Source: a virus. Taken from it: a stretch of 20,630 bases of DNA. This document shows, one piece after another, positions 4,572-20,630 of this stretch (positions are counted from its first letter, which is position 1; the number at the start of each line of letters is the position of its first letter). The DNA lies in IMG/VR virus record IMGVR_UViG_3300040808_001337, positions 1 to 20,630 of that record; one strand, written 5' to 3'. The position numbers and the translations under genes were made by a program. The notes beneath the pieces were generated by a model. That model did no database searches. It was given only the letters and a program-made list of their open reading frames with translations, and had not been told where the DNA came from.

Positions 4572-6019
4572 ATATTCACCTTATTAATAGTATACGGATA
4601 ATTTGCTTCTTTGTAAAACTTTTTTCTTGCCGTTAAATGTCTTTTTGAAAACTTGCAATTTGAAGTTATATCCCATATTTGTACATGATCCTTGTCTTTG
4701 GCTTTTCTAATACCTCTTCCAATACTTTGTATTACTCTAACAAAACTTTTTCCAGGTTCTAGTAAAACCAAATTAAATATTCTTGGTATATTGATACCTA
4801 CTGCCGCAATTCCGTAAGTTGCAATTAAAACTTTGTGTTGCTCAGTAGCAATTTCGCTATACTCTTCTTCTCTGTCTTCTGTTTTTGTTTTTCCTTGGAC
4901 AAAGACCGATCCAGGAATTAATTCTTGTAGTAATTCTCCTGATTTGATTCTGTCAATCAAAATCAAAGTGTTTCCACCATCACGTATTTCTTCAATCAAG
5001 TTACTTAAAAATTTTAATCTTTCTAAATTTGTTGTCAAATATGCAAGTTCTTCTTGATAAGTTCTAAATGAATTAGCATCTTGTGTTTGTATAACATTCA
5101 CATGACAGTTTGCAAGTACACCTTTGCTTTGTAATTCACTTGCTGATAATTGGCTTATAACTGTACCTAGTGAACAAATCAAACTCATTTTTTCATAATC
5201 TTCTTTTGGCACTGTACCTGTTAATCCCCATCTAATTGGAATGTGTGCAAAAGGTCCAGTTAATAAAGATTTTAATACATCAGCCTTTGCCATGTGTACT
5301 TCGTCAACTATAATACAATTAACATCTTTTATGAATTCTTCAATAGGAAATTCTGCTTCATCTTTTTTTGTATTTTTATTTAAAATATTTAAACTTTGCC
5401 ATGTGCAAATTGTGTGTTTGTGTCCTAGTTCTTTTCTTTCACCAAAATAAACACCAACATCTAATCCTATATTTTTATAATCTTCTTCTGTTTGTGTAAC
5501 AAGTGATTTGTTTGGTACTACTACAATTGATCTACCATAATTTTCACAAATTTTTGAAAGTGCCGCAGTGATAATTGTTTTACCAGCACCAGTGGCTATT
5601 TCTTGTAAACTTTGTGGATTACTGATAAAATCATTAATAACTTTAACTTGATAATCTCTTAATATAATTGGCTGTCCTTCATGTGTATGACCTTTAGGCC
5701 AATTGATGTGTGAAAAAAAACTGTCAGTAACTTCTTCAAATGAAAAATCAAAACTTTGTCTATGATCTTGTATCTGTATTTCATATCCATTGTTTTCAAT
5801 AATTGGCAAAATTTGATCTAGCAAATTCAAATATGTTCTTCCGCCAATGTCACAAAAACGTATGTTACCATCCCATCTGCCTAACTTGTAAGCAGGCAAG
5901 TGAAATGCATATGGCACAAAAAATTTAAGTTTGTCAGAAATTTTACGTCTTGTTGAAACGTCAAGACCTTCAAACTTTACATTAACTTCATCTTTGATTA
6001 TTAATGTTGCTTTAGCCAT
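4568..6019 (-). CDS. uvsW: UvsW-type DNA/RNA-DNA helicase (superfamily 2)
   Basis: A 483-residue protein, close to the T4 UvsW length. In T4, UvsW unwinds R-loops and branched DNA, moves replication forks and helps switch from origin- to recombination-dependent replication. SF2 motifs are in order: Walker A ATGAGKT (142-148), motif Ia VVVPNKSLVTQ (167-177), DEVH box (239-242), motif III GLTGT (265-269), a C-terminal RecA-like lobe with ILIDR (353-357), and motif VI QSIGRGIRKA (431-440). The N-terminal about 110 residues match the UvsW double-stranded-DNA-binding region (VPYAFHLPAYKLGRWDG). The start overlaps the upstream muralytic gene by 19 bases. Assignment is firm on motifs, length and synteny with uvsX and uvsY. 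Confidence 0.95.
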   Translation of the reverse strand: MAKATLIIKDEVNVKFEGLDVSTRRKISDKLKFFVPYAFHLPAYKLGRWDGNIRFCDIGGRTYLNLLDQILPIIENNGYEIQIQDHRQSFDFSFEEVTDSFFSHINWPKGHTHEGQPIILRDYQVKVINDFISNPQSLQEIATGAGKTIITAALSKICENYGRSIVVVPNKSLVTQTEEDYKNIGLDVGVYFGERKELGHKHTICTWQSLNILNKNTKKDEAEFPIEEFIKDVNCIIVDEVHMAKADVLKSLLTGPFAHIPIRWGLTGTVPKEDYEKMSLICSLGTVISQLSASELQSKGVLANCHVNVIQTQDANSFRTYQEELAYLTTNLERLKFLSNLIEEIRDGGNTLILIDRIKSGELLQELIPGSVFVQGKTKTEDREEEYSEIATEQHKVLIATYGIAAVGINIPRIFNLVLLEPGKSFVRVIQSIGRGIRKAKDKDHVQIWDITSNCKFSKRHLTARKKFYKEANYPYTINKVNI

Positions 6020-6627
6020 GGATTCTCTTCTCTTAACTGCTTTATAGAATTTTGTAGTCTTATTGTATACTCTTTGCCTAATTCACTGTATAAACTTAAA
6101 AATTGCACTAAAAATAACGAATCTACAGTGTTGTTAGCAACCATTTGATCTCTAACTTTACGAAATCCGTCATATGCATCATGATGATTAATTAAATGAT
6201 AATAGTAATCAACAGATCCGCATTTGTCTTTGAACTTGATAATTCCCCATGGTGTATTTTTTACACCTTTTGGTTTTATTTGATCTAAGTTTTTATTCCA
6301 TGTTCTTATTCCAAATAGATTATTTGCTTCTTTAGAAAACCTTGAATTACCCCAAGCAGACTCATGTATTGCCTGTGCTATCACAATTTCAATTGGTATA
6401 TAATGTTTTTCTTCTTTTGCTAAAACATTTTTATCTACACAATACACTATAAAATCAATAAACTCTTTTTTGTTTTTTACGTTTCCAAATTGGATTTTTG
6501 GAATTTTTTCTACTTTGTGTATTTCATTTTCTTTTACTATTTTTGCTGGTACTTCATTTTTATTGATACTTTCAGTAAACAATAAAATTACAAAAACAAC
6601 TAAAACTAGTAACAAAAACTTTTTCAT
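6001..6627 (-). CDS. Bax/glucosaminidase-like peptidoglycan hydrolase with N-terminal membrane segment
   Basis: A 208-residue protein. Residues 4-18 form a strongly hydrophobic helix after MKK, which is a signal peptide or signal anchor; no lipobox cysteine is present. Residues about 52-205 carry a lysozyme-like fold of the Bax / endo-beta-N-acetylglucosaminidase group: VIAQAIHESAWGNSRFS with a likely catalytic Glu89, then NNLFGIRTW and YYYHLINHHDAYDGFRK. Such enzymes cut the glycan strand of murein in the periplasm. It could be a signal-anchor endolysin or a wall-remodelling enzyme. It has a good Shine-Dalgarno (AAGGA, 5 bases before ATG) and sits inside a recombination operon, an odd place for a lysis gene; no holin or spanin is seen nearby. 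Confidence 0.8.
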   Translation of the reverse strand: MKKFLLLVLVVFVILLFTESINKNEVPAKIVKENEIHKVEKIPKIQFGNVKNKKEFIDFIVYCVDKNVLAKEEKHYIPIEIVIAQAIHESAWGNSRFSKEANNLFGIRTWNKNLDQIKPKGVKNTPWGIIKFKDKCGSVDYYYHLINHHDAYDGFRKVRDQMVANNTVDSLFLVQFLSLYSELGKEYTIRLQNSIKQLREENPWLKQH

Positions 6628-9684: not shown

Positions 9685-10557
9685 TTATAGTAAAGTTTTG
9701 TATATTGGTGTTAAACACACCCTGTTTACACCATTTTCTCTCTTAAATCTATTCCATGCAGTATCATTAGTTGTGCCTACTAAAAAACTATCACTAGGTA
9801 CTAGATCAAACTGTTCACATATTTGTTTTTGTAAATTTTGATACTTTTGCTTTTTTTCAAACACTGTGCTGTGTGATATCACTGTGTCAAACACGTCTAT
9901 TATTGTGGAATTAAAATATCCAGCACCTTGAATTTCACGTTGTAATAATTCTTCTTTTTTTGAAAAACGTACACCTGCTCTGAGCAGATTAACACCATAT
10001 GCTTTTGAACAACTCCAAAACACTTGTTCAACACAGTCATACATTTTAATTTTGTTTTCTCCAGTTGTTCCTCCAAATGCAAGATCCAAATAAATTGGAC
10101 ATAAATCTCTTGAACCAACTTCGTCATATCTTGGATCAAAGTTTCCTGTAGCACTAAAAGGATTACTCATGTATAACGGAACACCAGGCAACAAACTGTT
10201 AACAGATGTGGCAACATTGATTGGTTTGTTTAATATTGTTGGATAACGATACTCACCTTCAAATATTTGATACTGTTTGATTTTGATAGCAAAATGATCA
10301 ATGCTTTCATGTATACCATTTGTAGGATAACAAAAATCAAAACTGTCTACATCAATCAAAGGATATAAATATTTTTTTATTTTCTTAGCACACTCTAACC
10401 AACGTTTACTTCTTTTATCTTTTATTAGTACATTAGATTGATCTGTACTGTCAATATAATCACCAAGTTTGTTAACTAACATTGCTTTGACATCTTTATC
10501 AATAATAGAATGTATTGCTTTACTTGTACCAAAATCTTTGTTTGTTATGTGCTTCAT
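9685..10557 (-). CDS. Divergent fold-type I PLP-dependent enzyme (aminotransferase-like)
   Basis: A 290-residue protein from ATG 10557. Numbered from that ATG, CYPTNGIHESIDHF (about 76-89) resembles the TNGxxEAI helix that holds the PLP phosphate. IYLDLAFGGTTGE (155-167) resembles the strand with the pyridine-binding aspartate. FWSCSKAYGVNLLRAGVRF (180-198) closely resembles the SxSKxxGxxGxRxGY block, with the Schiff-base lysine at about 185 and a phosphate- or substrate-binding arginine at about 197. It is shorter than usual aminotransferases (350-450 residues), lacking most of the C-terminal small domain. ATG 10557 is chosen over a GTG at 10578: GGTGA lies about 9 bases upstream and the previous stop is adjacent. 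It is the last gene of the metabolic island. The substrate is unknown. Confidence 0.65.
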   Translation of the reverse strand: MKHITNKDFGTSKAIHSIIDKDVKAMLVNKLGDYIDSTDQSNVLIKDKRSKRWLECAKKIKKYLYPLIDVDSFDFCYPTNGIHESIDHFAIKIKQYQIFEGEYRYPTILNKPINVATSVNSLLPGVPLYMSNPFSATGNFDPRYDEVGSRDLCPIYLDLAFGGTTGENKIKMYDCVEQVFWSCSKAYGVNLLRAGVRFSKKEELLQREIQGAGYFNSTIIDVFDTVISHSTVFEKKQKYQNLQKQICEQFDLVPSDSFLVGTTNDTAWNRFKRENGVNRVCLTPIYKTLL

Positions 10558-10558
10558 A

Positions 10559-11146
10559 TTATTTTTCACCAATAACACATGCTACTAAATGATATCTGTT
10601 TTCTTTGCTGGCATTAAGAGCTGTGTGATTTGATGTTGTAAATGTTTTCCACCAAGTGTTTTTAGGAAGATGTTTTACTTCGTTATTGATTATCATCATA
10701 CATCCTTCTTGTGTTTTAATTGGATAGTGAATACGATATGTGTCATCACAATGCCATGTCAAACACTGTTTTGGTCTTAAATTCATTATTCTGACTCTAC
10801 CAACAACAAAATGTTTAGTTAATTCATTATAAACTTTTTCAAAATGTGTTCCTTTATACACACTACAAAGTTCTGTAAAGTCTTCTTCTTTTAAAGGATT
10901 TTCTCTAGGAGGTACAACAAGTTCCCCGTTAACTTCTTTTGACTTATCCCAATCGTAATATAAACTACCTCTACCTAATAAAAAATTATCTGGATCATCT
11001 TTAGTTGAGTTCAAACATATTTGGTAACTGCTGTTGTTGTTTTTATCTCGCCATTGTAGTTTACCAGCATCTAACATGCTTGTAAGTTCAGAATATAAAT
11101 CATATTCTGGCAAAAATTCAATTCTTTCAAAGTTATTTGAATTCAT
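10559..11146 (-). CDS. 2-oxoglutarate/Fe(II) oxygenase, aspartyl/asparaginyl hydroxylase-like
   Basis: A 195-residue protein. The C-terminal half shows the double-stranded beta-helix iron site: H132-x-D134 in TWHCDDTYRIHYPI, distal H174 in TSNHTALN, and R184 in NRYHLVACV, which would bind 2-oxoglutarate. Order and spacing fit the aspartyl/asparaginyl beta-hydroxylase group of cupin-fold oxygenases, which hydroxylate peptides or small molecules using O2, 2-oxoglutarate and Fe(II). The N-terminal about 110 residues are not recognisable. The start overlaps the upstream SDR stop (TAATG). It is one of four oxygenases in the operon, with the PLP enzyme directly downstream. The substrate is unknown. 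Confidence 0.75.
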   Translation of the reverse strand: MNSNNFERIEFLPEYDLYSELTSMLDAGKLQWRDKNNNSSYQICLNSTKDDPDNFLLGRGSLYYDWDKSKEVNGELVVPPRENPLKEEDFTELCSVYKGTHFEKVYNELTKHFVVGRVRIMNLRPKQCLTWHCDDTYRIHYPIKTQEGCMMIINNEVKHLPKNTWWKTFTTSNHTALNASKENRYHLVACVIGEK

Positions 11147-11646
11147 TATACTATTGACATTTCCTTAACTTTAAACGGTTGATTTATAATCCAGTCAACT
11201 GTTTGTACTACATATTTAACGTCAATGCGTTCTTTGTCATTATTTTTTTCTGTGCCTGTGTCAACATAACTTACATTTAATATCGATGTGTCAATGCCTT
11301 GCCAAAACAACTGAGCATTCATACTGTCAAGTGCTTGTTTTTCTACAGCATATTTGTAATTTTTTTTATAATCAGTTACCCAATATTTTGACATTGAGCC
11401 TATGTTTATTATTTTACCTTTAAATTTTTTTGATAGTTCATATAATAAATCAGTTTGATAAAACCCTTGTTGTGCATTATTAATAAAAACATCACAATGC
11501 TTTGCATCATTTATTATTTTTTGTATATCTTTTGATATATCATATCCATTAGATCTTGAAAATCCTACTGCATTAGGCAAATAATAATCATAAAGAGCTT
11601 TACCAATACCTAATGTGTGTCCTGTAATTGCATACTTTTTAGTCAT
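11146..11646 (-). CDS. Short-chain dehydrogenase/reductase, compact
   Basis: A 166-residue NAD(P)-dependent oxidoreductase of the SDR type, expected to reduce a carbonyl or oxidise an alcohol, or act as an epimerase. It shows the dinucleotide motif TGHTLGIG (8-15), FINNAQQG with the NNA motif (56-58), a serine in IGSMS (82-86) and Y99-x3-K103 in KYAVEKQAL, so the Ser-Tyr-Lys triad is intact. Classical SDRs are about 250 residues; this one lacks loops and part of the substrate cap, though the fold core is complete. It is coupled by TAATG overlaps to the GNAT-like gene upstream and the oxygenase downstream. Confidence 0.85.
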   Translation of the reverse strand: MTKKYAITGHTLGIGKALYDYYLPNAVGFSRSNGYDISKDIQKIINDAKHCDVFINNAQQGFYQTDLLYELSKKFKGKIINIGSMSKYWVTDYKKNYKYAVEKQALDSMNAQLFWQGIDTSILNVSYVDTGTEKNNDKERIDVKYVVQTVDWIINQPFKVKEMSIV

Positions 11647-12269
11647 TATAATATTTTACCTTTGTTCAACACTTCTGCTGTGTCAAATTTTTGCCCATTA
11701 TGATTATAGTAAACTACATTTTTTTTTGGTTGCCATTTGTAATCAGAGTCTTGTAAATTAATACTGTAAAAATACTGCAAGTAATCTGATTTAGGCGAAA
11801 CTTTAAACAAACAGTCTGGTTCTAATTTTAGATTTGTGTACCATTCAGTTTGTGTCCATTTTTTAAAAGCAGGATCAATCATTTGTTTTTTGCGTTGATA
11901 CAGTGCGTTGATGGCTCTGTTTTTAACATCTACTGTGATGTACAGTATTTTATATCTGTGTTCTCTTGCCCAGGAAATTTGATGATCAGCAACCATAAGT
12001 CCACAGTGTGTATGACGCCATGGCTTCAATATGTGATAACGGCAAACCCTAGCCGCTACGTCTTGATCACCTGTGTAGTGTGATGGTTCTACTGCTGATA
12101 TAGATATCAATTCGTCACCGGCAAACACCATCCAAGTTACTATGTTAGGATTGTCTGGATCATACTTGTCATAAGCAAGACTTTGATTGCCTTCTTTAAA
12201 AGTTTCTTCTCTAAACTTTTCTATTTGCTCTTTATAACTGTTGTCGTATACTTTTACTTCAAGTTCCAT
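11646..12269 (-). CDS. GNAT-like N-acetyltransferase
   Basis: A 207-residue protein from ATG 12269. The region about 52-128 looks like the GNAT core: strands ELISISAV and VCRYHILKPWRHTHCGLMV with a basic acetyl-CoA-binding turn (KPWRHTHCG), a helix DHQISWAREHRYK, a strand ILYITVDVKN, and an NRAINALYQRKKQM helix like the motif B N-x-x-A-x-x-LY. It would transfer an acetyl or other acyl group from CoA to an amine. The C-terminal about 65 residues are Tyr/Trp-rich and unassigned. ATG 12269 is preferred to a TTG at 12281; a GGA lies about 7 bases upstream. It overlaps its upstream neighbour by 16 bases. The substrate is unknown. Confidence 0.65.
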   Translation of the reverse strand: MELEVKVYDNSYKEQIEKFREETFKEGNQSLAYDKYDPDNPNIVTWMVFAGDELISISAVEPSHYTGDQDVAARVCRYHILKPWRHTHCGLMVADHQISWAREHRYKILYITVDVKNRAINALYQRKKQMIDPAFKKWTQTEWYTNLKLEPDCLFKVSPKSDYLQYFYSINLQDSDYKWQPKKNVVYYNHNGQKFDTAEVLNKGKIL

Positions 12270-12853
12270 TTGTTTTTCCAATCAGTGTATATCTTTTGCC
12301 ATTTTGAACTTGTTGTGTTATCGTAAGACAAGTATCGTTGTATGATTTCTGCATCTTGTTTATAAAATTCTTCATTACCTGGCACAACATTTTCCCAACC
12401 ATTGTTAAAACATTTTGAGTATACAACATTAGCACCAAGTTTCACAAGTATTTCTTTTGTTGCAGGAAAATGTCTGTTACCGCCTTCTTTTGACGCAGGA
12501 GTAAATGTCAACAACACAGTTGTTTTTCTACTAAACGGATACTGTGTACCCAAATTAGCATTCATATATCCTTTAACCACTAACCAATCTAAAAAGTTTT
12601 TAAATGCCGCACCCATTTGTGCTGTCATTTCTGGTACAGCAAACACAAACTGATCGTACTCATATAACTTTGTGATAAGTCTATCTACTTCCTGTGGCAC
12701 AACACCATCAGAAGCATTTGAATTTATCACTGGTATGTCATAGTTTGCCAAACTGTCTACATCAAATACACAGTGTTTGCTCAACAATTGTAGGCCTTTG
12801 TAGTTCATGCTGTCTGGTGATGCACTTCCACTCAATGCTATTGTTTTTATCAT
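12254..12853 (-). CDS. NADPH-dependent FMN reductase-like flavoprotein
   Basis: A 199-residue protein with the flavodoxin-like fold of the NADPH-dependent FMN reductase family. It shows an N-terminal phosphate loop IALSGSASPDSMNYKG (5-20), a strand and helix FVFAVPEMTAQMGAAFKNFLDWL (69-91) equivalent to the family's PEYN-x(3)-G-x-LKNAIDW motif, and GGNRHFPATKEIL (about 123-136) in the flavin-facing loop. The usual PEYN Tyr is replaced by Met. It could supply reduced flavin or electrons to the oxygenases and desaturases in the same operon, or reduce iron or quinones; that link is inferred from position. Its start is nested in the upstream methyltransferase stop (ATGA). Confidence 0.8.
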   Translation of the reverse strand: MIKTIALSGSASPDSMNYKGLQLLSKHCVFDVDSLANYDIPVINSNASDGVVPQEVDRLITKLYEYDQFVFAVPEMTAQMGAAFKNFLDWLVVKGYMNANLGTQYPFSRKTTVLLTFTPASKEGGNRHFPATKEILVKLGANVVYSKCFNNGWENVVPGNEEFYKQDAEIIQRYLSYDNTTSSKWQKIYTDWKNKWNLK

Positions 12854-13488
12854 ATCTCTATATCCACTATCAATCTTTTACCAGAAAATATTTCACAATC
12901 TAACAAATATTCAGTGTAATTTTTGTATTTGTTTTTGTACAAATGCATATCTTCTGTTATTGTTTTTAACACCAATCGTTTGTCCCAATGGCGCTGTTCA
13001 TGATATGGTTCTTGTATAATAGCATATTTTGTTTTGTAGAATTTAACAAGTTCATCAAACAAATTTAAATGATTATCTTTTACATATAATAATACACCAC
13101 TGAATATCACATGATCCACTGAGAAATCAACAGTAATATTGTTTTTATTATTCCAACTTGTATTTCTGTATTCTATATTAGAATTATTTTTCCAAATGTT
13201 TTGTGCAAGTTTTATAGGTTCTTCTGATGTATCAAATCCCATATACTTATAATCAGTATAGCCTTTATCATGCAATATTTTATTAACAGGGCCATGCCGA
13301 CTACCAACATCTATAATACCTTTAGATTGTTTTTCTATTATAATATCTGCTTGTTTTTCAAAAATAGGGAGAGCTTGTGGTGTATCCAAATACCACATGT
13401 CATCAAAGGTATAATTTTCTATTAGCGGAACTACAATCTCTGTTTCAGTTTGCTCATGTATTGTGGGCCAAGGCACTTTGTGGTTCAT
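12850..13488 (-). CDS. Class I SAM-dependent methyltransferase
   Basis: A 212-residue protein. Motif I GIIDVGSRHGPVNKIL (57-72) and the acidic post-I motif MGFDTSEEPIKLA (83-95, Asp86 for the ribose) mark a Rossmann-like SAM-binding core; HVIFSGVLLYVKD (126-138) matches motif IV/post-IV of small-molecule methyltransferases. The GSRHG version of GxGxG is slightly unusual. No DNA-methyltransferase NPPY/DPPY motif is present, so a small molecule, lipid or sugar target is more likely. ATG 13488 is chosen over ATG 13506 because GAGGA lies 5 bases upstream, while 13506 has no Shine-Dalgarno. It overlaps the TauD-like gene by 35 bases and the next gene by ATGA. Confidence 0.8.
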   Translation of the reverse strand: MNHKVPWPTIHEQTETEIVVPLIENYTFDDMWYLDTPQALPIFEKQADIIIEKQSKGIIDVGSRHGPVNKILHDKGYTDYKYMGFDTSEEPIKLAQNIWKNNSNIEYRNTSWNNKNNITVDFSVDHVIFSGVLLYVKDNHLNLFDELVKFYKTKYAIIQEPYHEQRHWDKRLVLKTITEDMHLYKNKYKNYTEYLLDCEIFSGKRLIVDIEI

Positions 13489-14302
13489 GGTTTTCCTCGT
13501 AAACATTTTTAAAGTCAGATGCTAGTCTCCACAACAATCTGCTGTTATCAAGCACAGGAGTTCTACGATGTAAACTGGTAAACTGATCCATTAACAGCAA
13601 ATCACCTTTTTTGAAAATATGATGATATTGATATTTTGATCTAAAAATAATTGGTTTTAGTCTTTCAATCATTTTTTCGTGATCAATTAGTGTTTTGCCT
13701 TCCCATGCTTTTACAATAAAGTGATATGGAAAATAAAAATAGTAGTCGCCTGTGTGAGGATGTCTATCAACCAAACTTCTAATACTGCCTTTGTTTTTAC
13801 TCATAAACTCAAGTTCAGGATCATCATCTTCTAAATTATAGATAGTGTTATTTTGAAACTTTAATCTTATTTTAATACTTTTCCAGTATTCTTGTTCATC
13901 TTGTGATAAATCGTAAAACGGCTTAGATGTATGACACACACTTAGAGTTGTGTTAATATCTTCTTGAATGCAATATAAACTAATTAAAATTTTATCAATT
14001 AAATGTCTTGAATTACCGTTTGAGTGCCAACCTAATTCAGTATCGCCAAACATACCAATCTTTTTGCCATCTACTTTTTTACCAGTTACTAAAAATATTT
14101 CAGGATAATCTTTTGGATTCATAAACAATCCTGGTGCTTCACAATCACCAAATCTTTTTTGCATTCTAACTATTTGTTCTTCAGTAAACTGTTGATCATA
14201 AAATACTGCACAACCTTCACTATGTATTTGTTGTGATATTTGTTTTAGCCTTTCATCTGATACTTCAAGTATGTTTTCTATGCTTCTAAATGGATTTATC
14301 AT
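13454..14302 (-). CDS. TauD/TfdA-like 2-oxoglutarate dioxygenase with HxN iron motif
   Basis: A 282-residue protein of TauD/clavaminate-synthase-like size. The N-terminus (IHSEGCAVFYDQQFTEEQIVRMQKRFGDCE) is typical of this family. The distal end carries LLMDQFTSLHRRTPVLDNSRLLWRL with the second iron-binding histidine (H245) and arginines at +10 and +14 for 2-oxoglutarate, as in TauD. The first iron motif lies in TELGWHSNGNSRH as H93-x-N95, where TauD has H-x-D and clavaminate synthase H-x-E. Asparagine is a poor ligand, so the enzyme may be a variant, use another carboxylate, or have altered chemistry. Its start is nested in the upstream oxygenase stop (ATGA). Confidence 0.8.
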   Translation of the reverse strand: MINPFRSIENILEVSDERLKQISQQIHSEGCAVFYDQQFTEEQIVRMQKRFGDCEAPGLFMNPKDYPEIFLVTGKKVDGKKIGMFGDTELGWHSNGNSRHLIDKILISLYCIQEDINTTLSVCHTSKPFYDLSQDEQEYWKSIKIRLKFQNNTIYNLEDDDPELEFMSKNKGSIRSLVDRHPHTGDYYFYFPYHFIVKAWEGKTLIDHEKMIERLKPIIFRSKYQYHHIFKKGDLLLMDQFTSLHRRTPVLDNSRLLWRLASDFKNVYEENHEPQSALAHNT

Positions 14303-14955
14303 AATATATTTTCTACCTTCTTTTTAAATGTTTGAAAATCTACATCAGCAGGAATATTATTCCATCTTGTGACCCAAGCACACCTTGGTGCTTCTGTTAC
14401 AATTACCCTGTGCATTGTATTTGTGTCTAACAGTATGGGCTTATCAACAATAATGTGTCCAATCTTTCTATCACTTAAAAATTTTTCAAATTCAGGTGTG
14501 CCTTGCCCCATTTCTTTTTGTGCTTTAAATTCGTGATAGTATGCATAACCGTGAGCATTTTTTTCAGGCAGATATACTTCTTCAGGTTTAGTTTCAAAAT
14601 AATCAATTCTTGATCCACCATGTACAGGAATAACCAAATTGTAATGATTAGGATGTTCTGTGTCTAGATCTATATCAGTGTGTGCAAATACATCTTTTTT
14701 AGTGCTGTCTGCTGTGTTAAATCCAGTTGACCTAAATTGATAATATGGATGTACTTTTCTATGTTCAACAAGTATTGGATCAAAAGTTTGTTCATACCCA
14801 GTTGGTATACCTGTTCTGTTATCTTCAAGTGAATAACTTCTAAACGGTGTTTTACCAAATGTGTTTGAATGTGTTACTTTAACTTTTTCATACAAAGACC
14901 TCAGTAATTGTAGGTCAGGATTTATGTCAATATATTCAACTATATCTTTTATCAT
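14299..14955 (-). CDS. Putative 2-oxoglutarate/Fe(II) oxygenase
   Basis: A 218-residue protein with an apparent cupin-type iron site: VFAHTDIDLD gives H92-x-D94; LLDTNTMHRVIV gives distal H182; and R191 or R197 in EAPRCAWVTRW could bind 2-oxoglutarate. Strand NLVIPVHGGSRIDYFE (106-121) between them fits the beta-helix. There is no signal peptide. It would hydroxylate or desaturate an unknown substrate with O2 and 2-oxoglutarate. AAAGG precedes the ATG, and the stop overlaps the TauD-like start. The family is more remote than its neighbours' and rests on motif order, so a non-catalytic cupin remains possible. Confidence 0.65.
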   Translation of the reverse strand: MIKDIVEYIDINPDLQLLRSLYEKVKVTHSNTFGKTPFRSYSLEDNRTGIPTGYEQTFDPILVEHRKVHPYYQFRSTGFNTADSTKKDVFAHTDIDLDTEHPNHYNLVIPVHGGSRIDYFETKPEEVYLPEKNAHGYAYYHEFKAQKEMGQGTPEFEKFLSDRKIGHIIVDKPILLDTNTMHRVIVTEAPRCAWVTRWNNIPADVDFQTFKKKVENIL

Positions 14956-14966
14956 TTTTAATACCT

Positions 14967-15698
14967 TTACACTGTTGCAAGTGTTTGTATGTCTTCTTGT
15001 GTTGGCAAAGAAAACATCAATGCAATTCTGTCTTCTGTTCCTTCATGCACAACTGAATGTTTTAAACCAACATTTAAAAAATATGCTGATCCATTTGCTG
15101 GCATTTCATAAGTTTCTTCAACACCTCTACGCCATACTTTGTTATAAACCTTGTCTGTTCCTTGTATTGGTACAATGACTCTGACTGCATACTCTGGTCC
15201 ATAGTCAATGTGTGGTGTTAAAAACTTACCACAACGTATTCTTGAAAGTCTAACTCTAATTGGTGTTGCGTTAAACTGTCCTTCAATAGCTTCTTTTAAA
15301 TATGAATTTTTATAAATTGGCAAAGGATGATGCCAATTGTGTTCATTCATTGGTGCTGGAAGACCTTCCAACCTACGAGTTTTTGTTCTATATTTTTCTG
15401 TTTTTGATTTTCCTAGTGACTCGCTGTTTGCTGTAATTTTACATTCATTTCTTAATTCTGTTAAATCTAAAACATCATTCAATGACTCTTGATAATAAGT
15501 CAAATTAATCTGATCAAAGTGGTGATAATTGTCTGAAGCAAGTTCTTCATGCACTGCACAAAGTCCTCTATTTGCTTGATATACGTTTACCCACTCTTTA
15601 TTTAAACGTACAACTTCTTCTCTAAGTTTTTCAATATCAAACTTAATTCCTGGAATTGGTGCTACACTTGGCAATTGGTATTTTGTTCTAGTTTCCAT
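14967..15698 (-). CDS. Aspartyl/asparaginyl beta-hydroxylase-family oxygenase
   Basis: A 243-residue protein. The C-terminal cupin domain (about 145-232) contains RLSRIRCGKFLTPHIDYG with H163-x-D165, VRVIVPIQG (172-180), SAYFLNVGLKHSVVHEG with distal H214, and DRIALMFSLP with R224, the layout of the Asp/Asn beta-hydroxylase family. The N-terminal about 140 residues include PLPIYKNSYLKEAIEG and may form a substrate lid. It probably hydroxylates a peptide or a small molecule using O2 and 2-oxoglutarate. It has a strong Shine-Dalgarno (GAGGA) and is separated from the desaturase upstream by 26 bases. It is the most convincing of the four oxygenases by motif. Confidence 0.85.
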   Translation of the reverse strand: METRTKYQLPSVAPIPGIKFDIEKLREEVVRLNKEWVNVYQANRGLCAVHEELASDNYHHFDQINLTYYQESLNDVLDLTELRNECKITANSESLGKSKTEKYRTKTRRLEGLPAPMNEHNWHHPLPIYKNSYLKEAIEGQFNATPIRVRLSRIRCGKFLTPHIDYGPEYAVRVIVPIQGTDKVYNKVWRRGVEETYEMPANGSAYFLNVGLKHSVVHEGTEDRIALMFSLPTQEDIQTLATV

Positions 15699-15724
15699 TT
15701 TTATTTCCTCAGTACTATTATATA

Positions 15725-16471
15725 TTATACATTTACTGGTTCAGTTTTGCAATCTTTTTTTGCTAAAAGAGGCACAACATATTTTCCACCAATATCCCAT
15801 GGTCCTAAAATTACTCTACTTACATCATCATGATGATTATCATGATATCCTTCACCCCACATGATCATGTTGCTTAAAAAATCAATTGTAGTTGGCTTGG
15901 CTTCTTTGCCACCGTGGCCAAAATAATTCAAATATGTCAAAAAGAACCATGCATGAGTAAAATTAAATGCCATCCACACAACCAACCATGGATTAATCAA
16001 TGCATGAAGCACTACTGATCCATAATATAACTTCCAATAGTGTTTAGTTGTAAACACAGCATCTTTTTTACGTAAAAATCTTCTCATTGGTATTGTGCCT
16101 TGTGGTGTTTGATATCTACCCATCAGCATCTTCCACCAACCCAAATGTTTAGGCGAGTGTGTGTCTAGTTCTGAATCTGTGTATTTGTGATGATTTAAAT
16201 GTGCAACCACATTGTGACCAGGAGGTCCTACAGCACTTATTACTGTTGATGCTAATAATATTTTTCTACCTATCCAACTTGGTTCAAACTGATCATGGCA
16301 CAACCATCTGTGATATGCAATCTGTGCCAAGTTGTTTGTGATATGACCAACCAACGTAAAAATCAATGCAAGTTCCCATGACCCACCCATAACAAAGTAA
16401 GCAGGAATACCCACAACTGCGATGACAAACATCACTACAATTTTTAATGTTACCCAATCAATATACTTCAT
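15725..16471 (-). CDS. Membrane fatty-acid desaturase, second copy
   Basis: A 248-residue integral membrane diiron enzyme of the acyl-CoA/acyl-lipid desaturase family. The three histidine boxes are complete: HRWLCH (54-59), HLNHH (91-95) and HDNHH (210-214). Hydrophobic stretches at about 9-28, 33-50, 70-85 and 150-182 fit membrane spans. It would introduce a double bond in a fatty acyl chain using O2 and electrons from ferredoxin or a similar donor. It is a diverged paralogue of the gene immediately upstream, only 4 bases away, with the same box spacing. Distinct chain positions or heterodimer-like cooperation are possible but untestable here. Confidence 0.9.
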   Translation of the reverse strand: MKYIDWVTLKIVVMFVIAVVGIPAYFVMGGSWELALIFTLVGHITNNLAQIAYHRWLCHDQFEPSWIGRKILLASTVISAVGPPGHNVVAHLNHHKYTDSELDTHSPKHLGWWKMLMGRYQTPQGTIPMRRFLRKKDAVFTTKHYWKLYYGSVVLHALINPWLVVWMAFNFTHAWFFLTYLNYFGHGGKEAKPTTIDFLSNMIMWGEGYHDNHHDDVSRVILGPWDIGGKYVVPLLAKKDCKTEPVNV

Positions 16472-16475
16472 GTGT

Positions 16476-17261
16476 TTACTCTTTGATGTATCCTTTGTTT
16501 ATGTGTGTTTTCAAAGGTTGTTTAACTTCTAATAATTTAATAAACCAACCACCTACATCAAACTCCCACCATTTGTGTTTGAAACTTGGATTTTGTGGAT
16601 CAGCATGATGATTGTTGTGCCAGCCTTCTCCCCACATCAATATGCCAAGCAAAGGTATGTTGGTTGAATTGTCATTTGTTTCGTAATTTCTGTAACCAAA
16701 CATGTGTGTTAGTGTGTTGATAAACGATCCTGCATTCCATAATATCATTGCTGGAAACAAGTATGCCGCTACCAATAGCATAGGATCAATCAATAACCAT
16801 ACACTTGCTATCACACCATGAATTAAAAAATACCATCTGTGAATAAATGAATGAAAACGATCTTTGATCAAGTGCATGGCATATCGTGGACTTGGTGTTT
16901 CAAACATACTCAACCATTGCACTTTAAAAAATCCTTGATGCTCTGGCGAGTGTGGATCTCGTTCTTGATCAGTAAAGTGATGATGTTCTCTATGAACAGC
17001 AACCCAACCAATTGTGGAACCAGTTAACCCGTAAGCACCTGCCAATGATCCAAAGTACTCATACCATTTAGGTGCGTTCCAACTCTTGTGTGATAGTAGT
17101 CGATGGAATGTCATTGTCATTCCAAAACAACCAGTTATAAAATATACAAAAAATCCTATCAACCAGTGGTACCAACTGCCGTACATGATCATAGGGATAA
17201 TGCTCAAGTGTGCTATGATTTGGCTAAAAAATAATGTCCATTTAAAATAATTTTGTTTCAT
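16476..17261 (-). CDS. Membrane fatty-acid desaturase, first copy (delta-9-like)
   Basis: A 261-residue membrane diiron desaturase. The histidine boxes are HRLLSH (53-58), HREHH (90-94) and HNNHH (215-219), with a fourth metal-associated HSPEH region at 104-108 as in stearoyl-CoA/acyl-lipid delta-9 desaturases. Hydrophobic spans lie at about 8-25, 31-52, 70-88 and 142-180. It would lower the melting point of host membrane lipids or desaturate a special acyl chain during infection. The ATG has no clear Shine-Dalgarno, and a promoter-like TATAAT ends 7 bases before it. It heads the run of eleven densely packed genes. Confidence 0.92.
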   Translation of the reverse strand: MKQNYFKWTLFFSQIIAHLSIIPMIMYGSWYHWLIGFFVYFITGCFGMTMTFHRLLSHKSWNAPKWYEYFGSLAGAYGLTGSTIGWVAVHREHHHFTDQERDPHSPEHQGFFKVQWLSMFETPSPRYAMHLIKDRFHSFIHRWYFLIHGVIASVWLLIDPMLLVAAYLFPAMILWNAGSFINTLTHMFGYRNYETNDNSTNIPLLGILMWGEGWHNNHHADPQNPSFKHKWWEFDVGGWFIKLLEVKQPLKTHINKGYIKE

Positions 17262-17268
17262 AATTTTT

Positions 17269-17296
17269 ATTATACATTCTTTTTAAAAGTTTACAA
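17269..17296 (-). promoter_or_regulatory. Possible promoter directly before the first desaturase
   Basis: The minus strand shows TTGTAA (17291-17296), a 16-base spacer and a perfect TATAAT (17269-17274). The expected start would lie at or next to the ATG at 17261, giving almost no leader. In such AT-rich DNA a chance TATAAT is common, so this is tentative. Confidence 0.35.
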
Positions 17297-17310
17297 GTTA
17301 ATTATAATGA

Positions 17311-17318
17311 TATTTATT
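17311..17318 (-). promoter_or_regulatory. Late-promoter-like box AATAAATA upstream of the desaturases
   Basis: AATAAATA lies 49 bases before the first desaturase ATG, in the 98-base gap after the peroxiredoxin gene. It matches the NATAAATA late-promoter form. It could let the metabolic island be read again late in infection, independently of the peroxiredoxin promoter. Confidence 0.4.
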
Positions 17319-17359
17319 ACAGTTTGTAGAGCTGATATAAACTACTATTTTAATAATGT

Positions 17360-17791
17360 TTATGAAAGTTCTTCTAAAACACCTTCAATAAAAGGATCTT
17401 TAAAATCTTTGGTAATTTCGCCATTTTCAACTAAAACTGCGAATCTATTACATCTGATACCAAATGTTTCTCCCCAGTCAACTTCTTTTTTTAGTTTTTT
17501 TGAAAATACTGCTAAAGGATCAGACACGCTGTCTATATCTGGATGTCCATGTGTTTTATTCCATTCGTCCATAACAAATGCATCATTAACTGCCATAAAA
17601 ACTACTTTTTCAATTCCTTTGTTTTTAAGTGTTTCAAGATTTTTTACAAACCCTGGAATATGTCTTTTTGTACAACCAGGAGTAAATGCACCCGGAACAC
17701 CAACTAAAATTGCTTTTGAGTGTGTTAGTTTATAAGGAACTATATCTTTTCCTTCTAATATAAAAAGACCTTGAGTATCTAATGTTGTCAT
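17360..17791 (-). CDS. Prx5-type peroxiredoxin
   Basis: A 143-residue thioredoxin-fold peroxidase that reduces H2O2 and organic or lipid hydroperoxides. PGAFTPGCTKRHIPGFV (33-49) holds peroxidatic Cys40 with the flanking Thr and the Pro shell of the Prx5 subfamily; ETFGIRCNRFAVLVENGEI (108-126) holds the conserved active-site Arg region. Cys114 sits where most Prx5 proteins have Ser or another residue, and no C-terminal resolving Cys is present, so it may be 1-Cys or use Cys114. It is about 15-20 residues shorter than plant and bacterial Prx5. It has AAGGA 6 bases before the ATG and a near-consensus promoter. It may guard against peroxides produced around the O2-using enzymes downstream or by the infected host. 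Confidence 0.92.
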   Translation of the reverse strand: MTTLDTQGLFILEGKDIVPYKLTHSKAILVGVPGAFTPGCTKRHIPGFVKNLETLKNKGIEKVVFMAVNDAFVMDEWNKTHGHPDIDSVSDPLAVFSKKLKKEVDWGETFGIRCNRFAVLVENGEITKDFKDPFIEGVLEELS

Positions 17792-19914: not shown

Positions 19915-20630
19915 TTAGATAATCATAGGCATTGGTGCTACTGAGCCATCATCATCATCTAATTTATCACCTAAACTTTTCTCAAATATAGGATCAAATT
20001 TAGTTAGATAATCAACAATTCTGCCACACAGCAAACTTGCTGATACTAAATCATCATTTTCGCCTAATTTTGCAGAGTAACTATTTCCTCTAGCAACAAA
20101 AACTTTTAGTTCTCTAATTAAATTTCTACTGTTTAAAGTTACCTTATCAGATTCAATCCAGTATTTTAATTTTGAGCAGGCTGATATTTTAGATTTATGT
20201 GTGGTGTTAAAACCTTTTCTTTTGTGTTTGTCTCTTCTCTGTTGTCCAGCACGTCTGGGTTCATGTATAAAAAATCCTGGAAACTTTGATTCATCCATTT
20301 CTTCAACTGCAACAATGGCCGCTTCACCAAGTGTGTTGTTTTCAATGGTCCAGTATATTTCTGGAGCCGGTTGCCCTTGTTCTTTTAATTCAAGATCAAT
20401 TTCTTTTAATATTGAATATAATGTTCTCACTTGTCCTTGCACTGAAGTTTTATTATGTTGCCATTCTGCTACTTGTTTGAATTCTGGTAAACTGTAAACT
20501 TCTATTGCTGAATAATCACCACCTGTACCCAAACTTGGATCAAGTGCCGCCACATAAGTGTTTCCTTTTTTGATCTTTTCATACCATCTAACTTGACCAG
20601 TTTTTCTCAAAGGATCTTTACCAGCCAATG
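19915..20630 (-). CDS. terL: Terminase large subunit (gp17-type), C-terminal nuclease domain, 5' end outside
   Basis: About 238 residues are visible; the frame stays open past the right edge, so the N-terminal ATPase is missing. The RNase H-like nuclease that cuts concatemeric DNA during packaging is intact: numbering from the TTG codon at 20628, YVAALDPSLGTGGDYSAIEV (25-44) carries the first catalytic Asp30, YWTIENNTLG (92-101) carries Glu96, and KLGENDDLVSASLL (187-200) carries Asp192/Asp193, matching the gp17 D-E-D triad. FNTTHKSKISACSKL lies in the region that contacts DNA or the portal in T4. The acidic tail (DKLDDDDGS) resembles the divergent C-terminus. The TTG at 20628 is internal, not a start. 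Confidence 0.93.
   Translation of the reverse strand, partial: LAGKDPLRKTGQVRWYEKIKKGNTYVAALDPSLGTGGDYSAIEVYSLPEFKQVAEWQHNKTSVQGQVRTLYSILKEIDLELKEQGQPAPEIYWTIENNTLGEAAIVAVEEMDESKFPGFFIHEPRRAGQQRRDKHKRKGFNTTHKSKISACSKLKYWIESDKVTLNSRNLIRELKVFVARGNSYSAKLGENDDLVSASLLCGRIVDYLTKFDPIFEKSLGDKLDDDDGSVAPMPMII

Follow-up and report, generated by a model that had tools for sequence, protein, structure and literature searches.

A candidate mobile cassette of T4-like phages for building or tailoring an amine/acyl metabolite at the membrane

The IMG/VR virus record IMGVR_UViG_3300040808_001337, analysed over its complete length of 20,630 b (hereafter the window), raises the question of whether twelve neighbouring enzyme genes in a phage genome form one pathway or represent scattered pick-up from hosts. 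The genes are twelve co-directional minus-strand open reading frames (ORFs) at 9685-17791, with coordinates as first given, and an earlier note, made from the sequence alone, had read them as one operon-like metabolic island. Our analysis makes it highly probable that the island encodes a biosynthetic pathway. It also favours, with less assurance, the view that the island is a mobile T4-like cassette with a core of a GNAT acyltransferase, an aminotransferase (AT), a hydroxylase-type oxygenase (AAH2) and a stearoyl-CoA desaturase (SCD)-type desaturase (DES) plus optional tailoring enzymes, and that at the membrane it assembles or modifies a metabolite of amine/acyl type.

The block is flanked on one side by UvsW, UvsY, UvsX and gp32, all T4-like by profile matches, and on the other by a virion structural protein followed by the C-terminus of TerL; these flanks and the ORF coordinates bear out its placement between the terminase and gp32 modules. 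Going leftward from 17261, the gaps are 4, 26, 11, -4, -53, -4, -28, -1, -1 and -20 b, so that eleven genes overlap or sit within 26 b of each other, as the earlier note had stated, while the peroxiredoxin gene lies separately, 98 b upstream of the eleven-gene run. The predicted products are as follows.

9685-10578, minus strand: AT, short pyridoxal phosphate (PLP) fold-type-I aminotransferase-like protein (HisC/CobD-like), with a GTG start at 10578 or an ATG start at ~10554
10559-11146, minus strand: AAH1, Asp/Arg-hydroxylase-type 2-oxoglutarate (2OG) oxygenase, optional member (PF05118, 2.1e-8)
11146-11646, minus strand: short SDR-like oxidoreductase, optional and often beside AAH1 (PF00106, 1.4e-3, below cut-off)
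11646-12281, minus strand: GNAT N-acyltransferase, near-obligate core member (PF00583, 1.7e-3, weak)
12254-12853, minus strand: NAD(P)H-dependent FMN reductase-like flavoprotein (PF03358, FMN_red, 4.5e-16)
12850-13506, minus strand: MT, S-adenosylmethionine (SAM)-dependent methyltransferase (PF13847, 3.7e-6), with motif I DVGSRHG in the translation
13454-14302, minus strand: TauD-like 2OG oxygenase with HxN for HxD at the iron site (PF02668, 4.9e-20)
14299-14955, minus strand: OX2, 2OG/Fe(II) oxygenase with no Pfam match and an intact HxD...H...R (from AlphaFold (AF2), Foldseek and alignment A12)
14967-15698, minus strand: AAH2, Asp/Arg-hydroxylase-type 2OG oxygenase, core member (PF05118, 2.9e-4, just under the bit cut-off)
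15725-16471, minus strand: DES1, membrane diiron desaturase with invariant His boxes (PF00487, FA_desaturase, 9.4e-12)
16476-17261, minus strand: DES2, membrane diiron desaturase (PF00487, 3.2e-14)
17360-17791, minus strand: PRX, peroxiredoxin with the catalytic-Cys motif, its own unit in the window and intra-operon in other phages (PF08534, Redoxin, 1.9e-23)

To ask whether these genes belong together, viral contigs were scanned with four anchors, which together with the window and the Pelagibacter phage Mosig gave 101 non-redundant loci (numbered with L below); because the anchors are related to the seed alignments, the counts hold for this clade of the families and do not extend to all members. 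DES was present in 43 of the 46 unique loci found with AAH2. The AT anchor gave 44 unique loci, with AAH2 in 38, DES in 35, MT in 32 and TauD in 31, and the 29 phage loci found with GNAT that span 12 kb or more contained DES (29), AT (28), AAH2 (27), TauD (25) and MT (25). The near-obligate core is AAH2-aminotransferase-GNAT plus the desaturase. The earlier note had named conserved co-occurrence of an oxygenase-SDR-GNAT-FMN reductase-MTase block as support for a pathway; the co-occurrence stands, while the core is a different one, to which SDR and AAH1 are optional additions.

Cassette genes shared the same orientation in 418 of 436 cases, and 92% of 415 neighbouring pairs overlapped or abutted, with the gene order shuffled and the genomic location varying among loci. 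The carriers are unrelated marine and freshwater phages of distantly related lineages, and the minimal forms DES-AAH2-GNAT and DES-AT-AAH2-GNAT were found in distant contigs. The dN/dS of the island genes against L012 was at most 0.26. These genes are linked by selection and under purifying selection, and their catalytic motifs are conserved. The earlier note had named independent, random occurrence in related phages as what would speak against a pathway; what we found is a block that recurs in shuffled order, which supports a pathway over scattered pick-up, and co-occurrence from three anchors rejects independent gene pick-up for the core.

The nearest relatives, L010-L012, carry the cassette at the same location as the window without AAH1 and SDR between GNAT and AT, and SDR and AAH1 are adjacent 12 times in relatives, suggesting that these two form a pair of their own, either a recent insertion or an exchange module. 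OX2 (62% identity) and MT (78%) of L010-L012 are more divergent alleles relative to the window. In relatives PRX is found in FMN-PRX and PRX-OX2 adjacency. In the cassette neighbourhoods of 92 loci, further 2OG-oxygenase-like families without a name (c17, present in 32 of the loci, and the m_81 type, in 26) and radical-SAM families also recur.

An isolated phage, Pelagibacter phage Mosig EXVC030M (MT647606.1), carries orthologues of nine island genes as one co-directional run, Mosig_00072-00080. As in the window, AAH2, GNAT, MT, TauD, OX2, PRX, FMN reductase, AT and one desaturase are contiguous; different from the window, their order is rearranged, the desaturase is single, an SDR was not recognised and the AAH1 relative is encoded outside the run, at another place in the genome. 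The Mosig block adjoins tail-fibre genes, at a genomic place different from that in the window. Identities between the two cassettes are 73% for TauD, 75% for OX2 and 59% for GNAT, while outside the cassette TerL and UvsW share just 26% and 29%; the contrast between TauD and OX2 on one hand and TerL and UvsW on the other suggests that the cassette moved as a unit. AT, AAH2 and the desaturases are just 30-35% identical, pointing to a mosaic make-up of the cassette itself. In a set of 50,697 phage records, queries with AAH2, OX2, TauD, FMN reductase and the L134 AT matched Mosig only, and DES queries matched three records. The window TerL (19915-20628) is closest to those of PA5oct-type Pseudomonas jumbo phages (51%), although among isolates the nearest counterpart of the cassette is that of Mosig. 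In composition, a clear foreign signature was absent. The best reading is of a mobile T4-like phage cassette spread by horizontal transfer.

The Mosig genome announcement gives a gene-by-gene annotation and describes no pathway. A divergent neighbouring operon in L034 (16991-27306; Mosig 61-71 kb) is annotated with MoaA-like, carbamoyltransferase, DegT-type aminotransferase and nitroreductase genes, and relatives of several of these genes recur in the same orientation in L022-L026.

Cellular copies were sought with AAH2 in 84,980 bacterial and archaeal species genomes, using short peptide patterns that may miss distant copies. There were 6 matches, all on contigs of metagenome-assembled genomes (MAGs), where binning error is possible, and none was labelled SAR11; in the order of L187, 2 of 129 genomes matched, namely those of L186 and L187. 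A host-derived pathway is unsupported by these counts. In L186 (a 349 kb contig) and L187 (a 118 kb contig, Bacteriovoracaceae), cassette partners lie among chromosomal-looking genes, subject to the same possibility of binning error, and L188 looks like a phage contig. L186 also has a radical-SAM enzyme with a weak B12-domain match. The oxygenase/desaturase/GNAT clusters of L186, L187 and L190 (Bdellovibrionaceae) resemble the phage cassette, with small proteins bearing a Tat-like N-terminus and radical-SAM genes adjacent.

The enzyme identities of the earlier note (desaturases, oxygenases, methyltransferase, flavin reductase, GNAT, SDR, PLP enzyme and peroxiredoxin) were all supported by profiles, motifs or AlphaFold/Foldseek. 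In single-sequence Pfam searches, both desaturases, TauD, AAH1, FMN reductase, methyltransferase and peroxiredoxin scored above or at the cut-off, and AAH2, GNAT and SDR below it. The desaturase family profiles matched stearoyl-CoA desaturase 4ymk in the PDB (1.4e-15 and 6.7e-24), and the HRxxxH, HxxHH and GExxHxxHH boxes together with N...H place DES among predicted SCD-type desaturases; within the island, membrane segments are predicted for DES1 and DES2 alone. AAH1 and AAH2 are assigned to the Asp/Arg-hydroxylase family by PF05118 and a conserved H...H...R. The AAH2 alignment profile matched the beta-hydroxylase 7v4f (2.4e-5), and its H, D, H and R are invariant in 15 divergent members. AT gave no meaningful Pfam match; its alignment profile matched HisC in the PDB (E 1.6e-5), its AF2 model (predicted confidence, pLDDT, 95) matched HisC, CobD and PLP fold-type-I aminotransferases in Foldseek, and the PLP-site Asp, Lys and Arg are invariant in 50 relatives. 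By predicted fold and PLP-site residues, AT thus belongs to the HisC-like PLP fold-type-I aminotransferases. For GNAT, the motif residues are invariant in family alignment A8, and its profile matched 2i79 alone in the PDB, at 0.013.

A sequence search of OX2 against the PDB returned nothing significant. Its AF2 model (pLDDT 92), built from an alignment of the window and scan loci only, with the Mosig row left out, gave as best PDB Foldseek matches mainly 2OG/Fe(II) oxygenases (ABH2, HygX, KanJ, TYW5 and JMJD5). The modelled double-stranded beta-helix fold, HxD...H and 2OG-binding Arg identify OX2 as a 2OG/Fe(II) oxygenase with predicted metal binding.

The TauD-like protein belongs to the PF02668 family by a profile score above the cut-off, and by alignment it lacks the canonical HxD/E...H iron triad, carrying HSN where the aligned ScoE has HxD. 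The N of HxN was found in 57 of 57 distinct close relatives and 21 of 21 intermediate members, and HxN is retained in the TauD homologues on the MAG contigs L186, L187 and L188. Since the dN/dS of the gene is 0.04-0.09 (three comparisons), it is not decaying. No precedent for an HxN triad was found in titles and abstracts, within incomplete literature coverage. The earlier count of six O2-activating iron enzymes thus holds by fold for all six, except that TauD has a non-canonical metal site. The loss of most active sites, which the earlier note had also named as speaking against a pathway, was not borne out: catalytic motifs are conserved in the families examined, TauD alone deviating, invariantly.

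A predicted promoter element lies upstream of the DES2...AT run.

17311-17317, minus strand: ATAAATA, predicted T4-type late-promoter core

ATAAATA is the late-promoter core of T4-like phages. The window holds 5 copies, below the 12 expected by chance; 4 of them share the strand of the coding sequence and lie no more than 100 b ahead of a gene start. The motif was found upstream of 19 of 51 operon heads in the cassettes and of 31% of other heads, compared with 2.4% of random 100-b windows, a contrast that is approximate because the upstream stretches are non-coding and up to 150 b long. This enrichment upstream of operon heads leads us to infer that the cassette may be expressed late from one T4-type late promoter. 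Counts of sigma-70-like promoters in the island equalled those in shuffles. Between UvsY and UvsW, 6001-6627 encodes a glucosaminidase-type endolysin-like protein with a hydrophobic N-terminus.

What might the cassette make? That GNAT, aminotransferase and AAH2 are linked to a membrane desaturase suggests synthesis of an amine that undergoes acylation, oxidation and methylation at the membrane, and the SCD-like profile and conserved SCD metal motifs of DES point to an acyl substrate. In the proposed scheme, the short HisC-like aminotransferase would form an amine, which the GNAT acyltransferase would acylate; the SCD-type membrane desaturases would unsaturate the acyl chain, and the 2OG enzymes, including the AAH2 hydroxylase of the core, would oxidise the product. 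HxN TauD, OX2, methyltransferase, FMN reductase, AAH1 and SDR would be optional tailoring members, among which MT would methylate the product and the flavin reductase supply electrons, and the peroxiredoxin may clear peroxide from uncoupled turnover. We infer a small product that carries an amine and is acylated, hydroxylated and methylated, with an aminolipid or an N-acyl amino compound as the most plausible candidate; that it is a membrane or acyl product is offered tentatively.

Several observations weigh against this scheme. AT, AAH2 and GNAT were all absent from 60 of the 67 loci found with the DES anchor, so the coupling of DES to the others may be loose, and the full member set is not in every locus. 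Among the island proteins we recognised neither a carrier protein nor a CoA ligase, a PlsC-type acyltransferase or an exporter, and the substrate classes of GNAT and AT are not readable from sequence. Tail-fibre-like genes and further oxygenases lie beside many cassettes, which also fits a role in protein modification or a hypervariable region.

Among known systems, OlsB, a GNAT-type acyltransferase, and OlsC, of Asp/Asn-hydroxylase type, act on membrane aminolipids. The island shares GNAT-type and PF05118-type enzymes with this ornithine-lipid tailoring, but has extra PLP, TauD and FMN enzymes. An ornithine-lipid pathway was rejected, with no OlsB or OlsA found: the GNAT fits PF00583 weakly and gave no Acetyltransf_5 match, and the island proteins gave no match to PlsC. 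A bacterial ceramide pathway was likewise rejected for lack of Spt, as AT matches HisC, CobD and aminotransferases, with no alpha-oxoamine synthase among the matches listed. ScoE, a TauD-family enzyme of isonitrile biosynthesis whose substrate is an amino fatty acid, is the best PDB profile match of the TauD protein (1.5e-6); however, ScoE has HxD where the cassette family has HxN, and other Sco genes were not recognised. Stearoyl-CoA desaturases are the sole meaningful PDB matches of the DES profile, with His boxes and N...H conserved in cassette members, whereas the cassette DES are shorter (~210-260 amino acids), phage-encoded and set within an oxygenase cassette. SCD-type desaturases without the cassette are common in large viral contigs (L266-L344), with several copies per locus in L323 and L330. 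In pelagiphages, 2OG-Fe(II) oxygenases have been described paired with ferrochelatase (PMC9599517, PMC11561400); these resemble the island in having several clustered 2OG oxygenases in marine phage genomes. Ferrochelatase was not found among the window proteins scanned, a few window ORFs lying outside the scan, and the words desaturase and aminotransferase are absent from the main text of PMC9599517. The earlier note knew of no described phage pathway with this gene set, and we likewise found no description of it in the literature searched, with most subscription journals outside the coverage. That phages encode metabolic enzymes is established; this set and its product would be new.

Three other explanations were weighed. 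An improbable one is a protein-modification island, in which the targets of the oxygenases, GNAT and methyltransferase are phage proteins (e.g. the tail fibre) or host surface proteins; the AAH family includes protein Asp/Asn hydroxylases, many cassettes have tail-fibre-like genes and additional 2OG and radical-SAM genes nearby, and the Mosig block adjoins tail-fibre genes, yet the PLP aminotransferase and SCD-type membrane desaturases have no obvious protein-modifying role, and the window cassette is not adjacent to fibre genes. By analogy with rhizobitoxine, whose logic involves a desaturase, a PLP enzyme and a methyltransferase, the island might instead make a vinylglycine-like, amino-acid-type antimetabolite that inhibits host or competitor enzymes. 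A PLP enzyme, a fatty-acid-desaturase-family enzyme, a methyltransferase and 2OG oxygenases are all present, and GNAT could serve as a self-protection acetyltransferase; but DES resembles stearoyl-CoA desaturases, which are acyl-chain enzymes, and no dedicated precursor-forming enzyme was recognised, and we regard this as unlikely too. Hardly credible is the gathering of unrelated auxiliary genes at a permissive insertion site with no common pathway: T4-like phages do have hypervariable regions, content varies between loci and the window differs from L010-L012 by a local insertion of the AAH1-SDR pair and by its divergent alleles of OX2 and MT, but the same orthologous families stay together whatever the genome position or phage lineage, with three independent anchors and on bacterial contigs, which largely refutes gathering for AAH2, AT and GNAT and allows it for AAH1, SDR and PRX.

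Returning to the membrane-associated amine/acyl pathway, the set is kept by unrelated phages and almost absent from the 84,980 species genomes, which suggests a shared infection-time product of value to phages. Phage metabolic genes are usually read singly, as host-gene pick-up, and the island is a multi-enzyme set kept as a unit. Its invariant HxN TauD family is a question of enzymology in its own right. It is conceivable, if rather doubtful, that T4-like lineages share an undescribed pathway to a new lipid-like or amino-acid-like molecule that relies on a large HxN TauD-like family, and hence on non-heme-iron chemistry new to that family. As Mosig infects cultured Pelagibacter ubique HTCC1062, the product can be sought directly.

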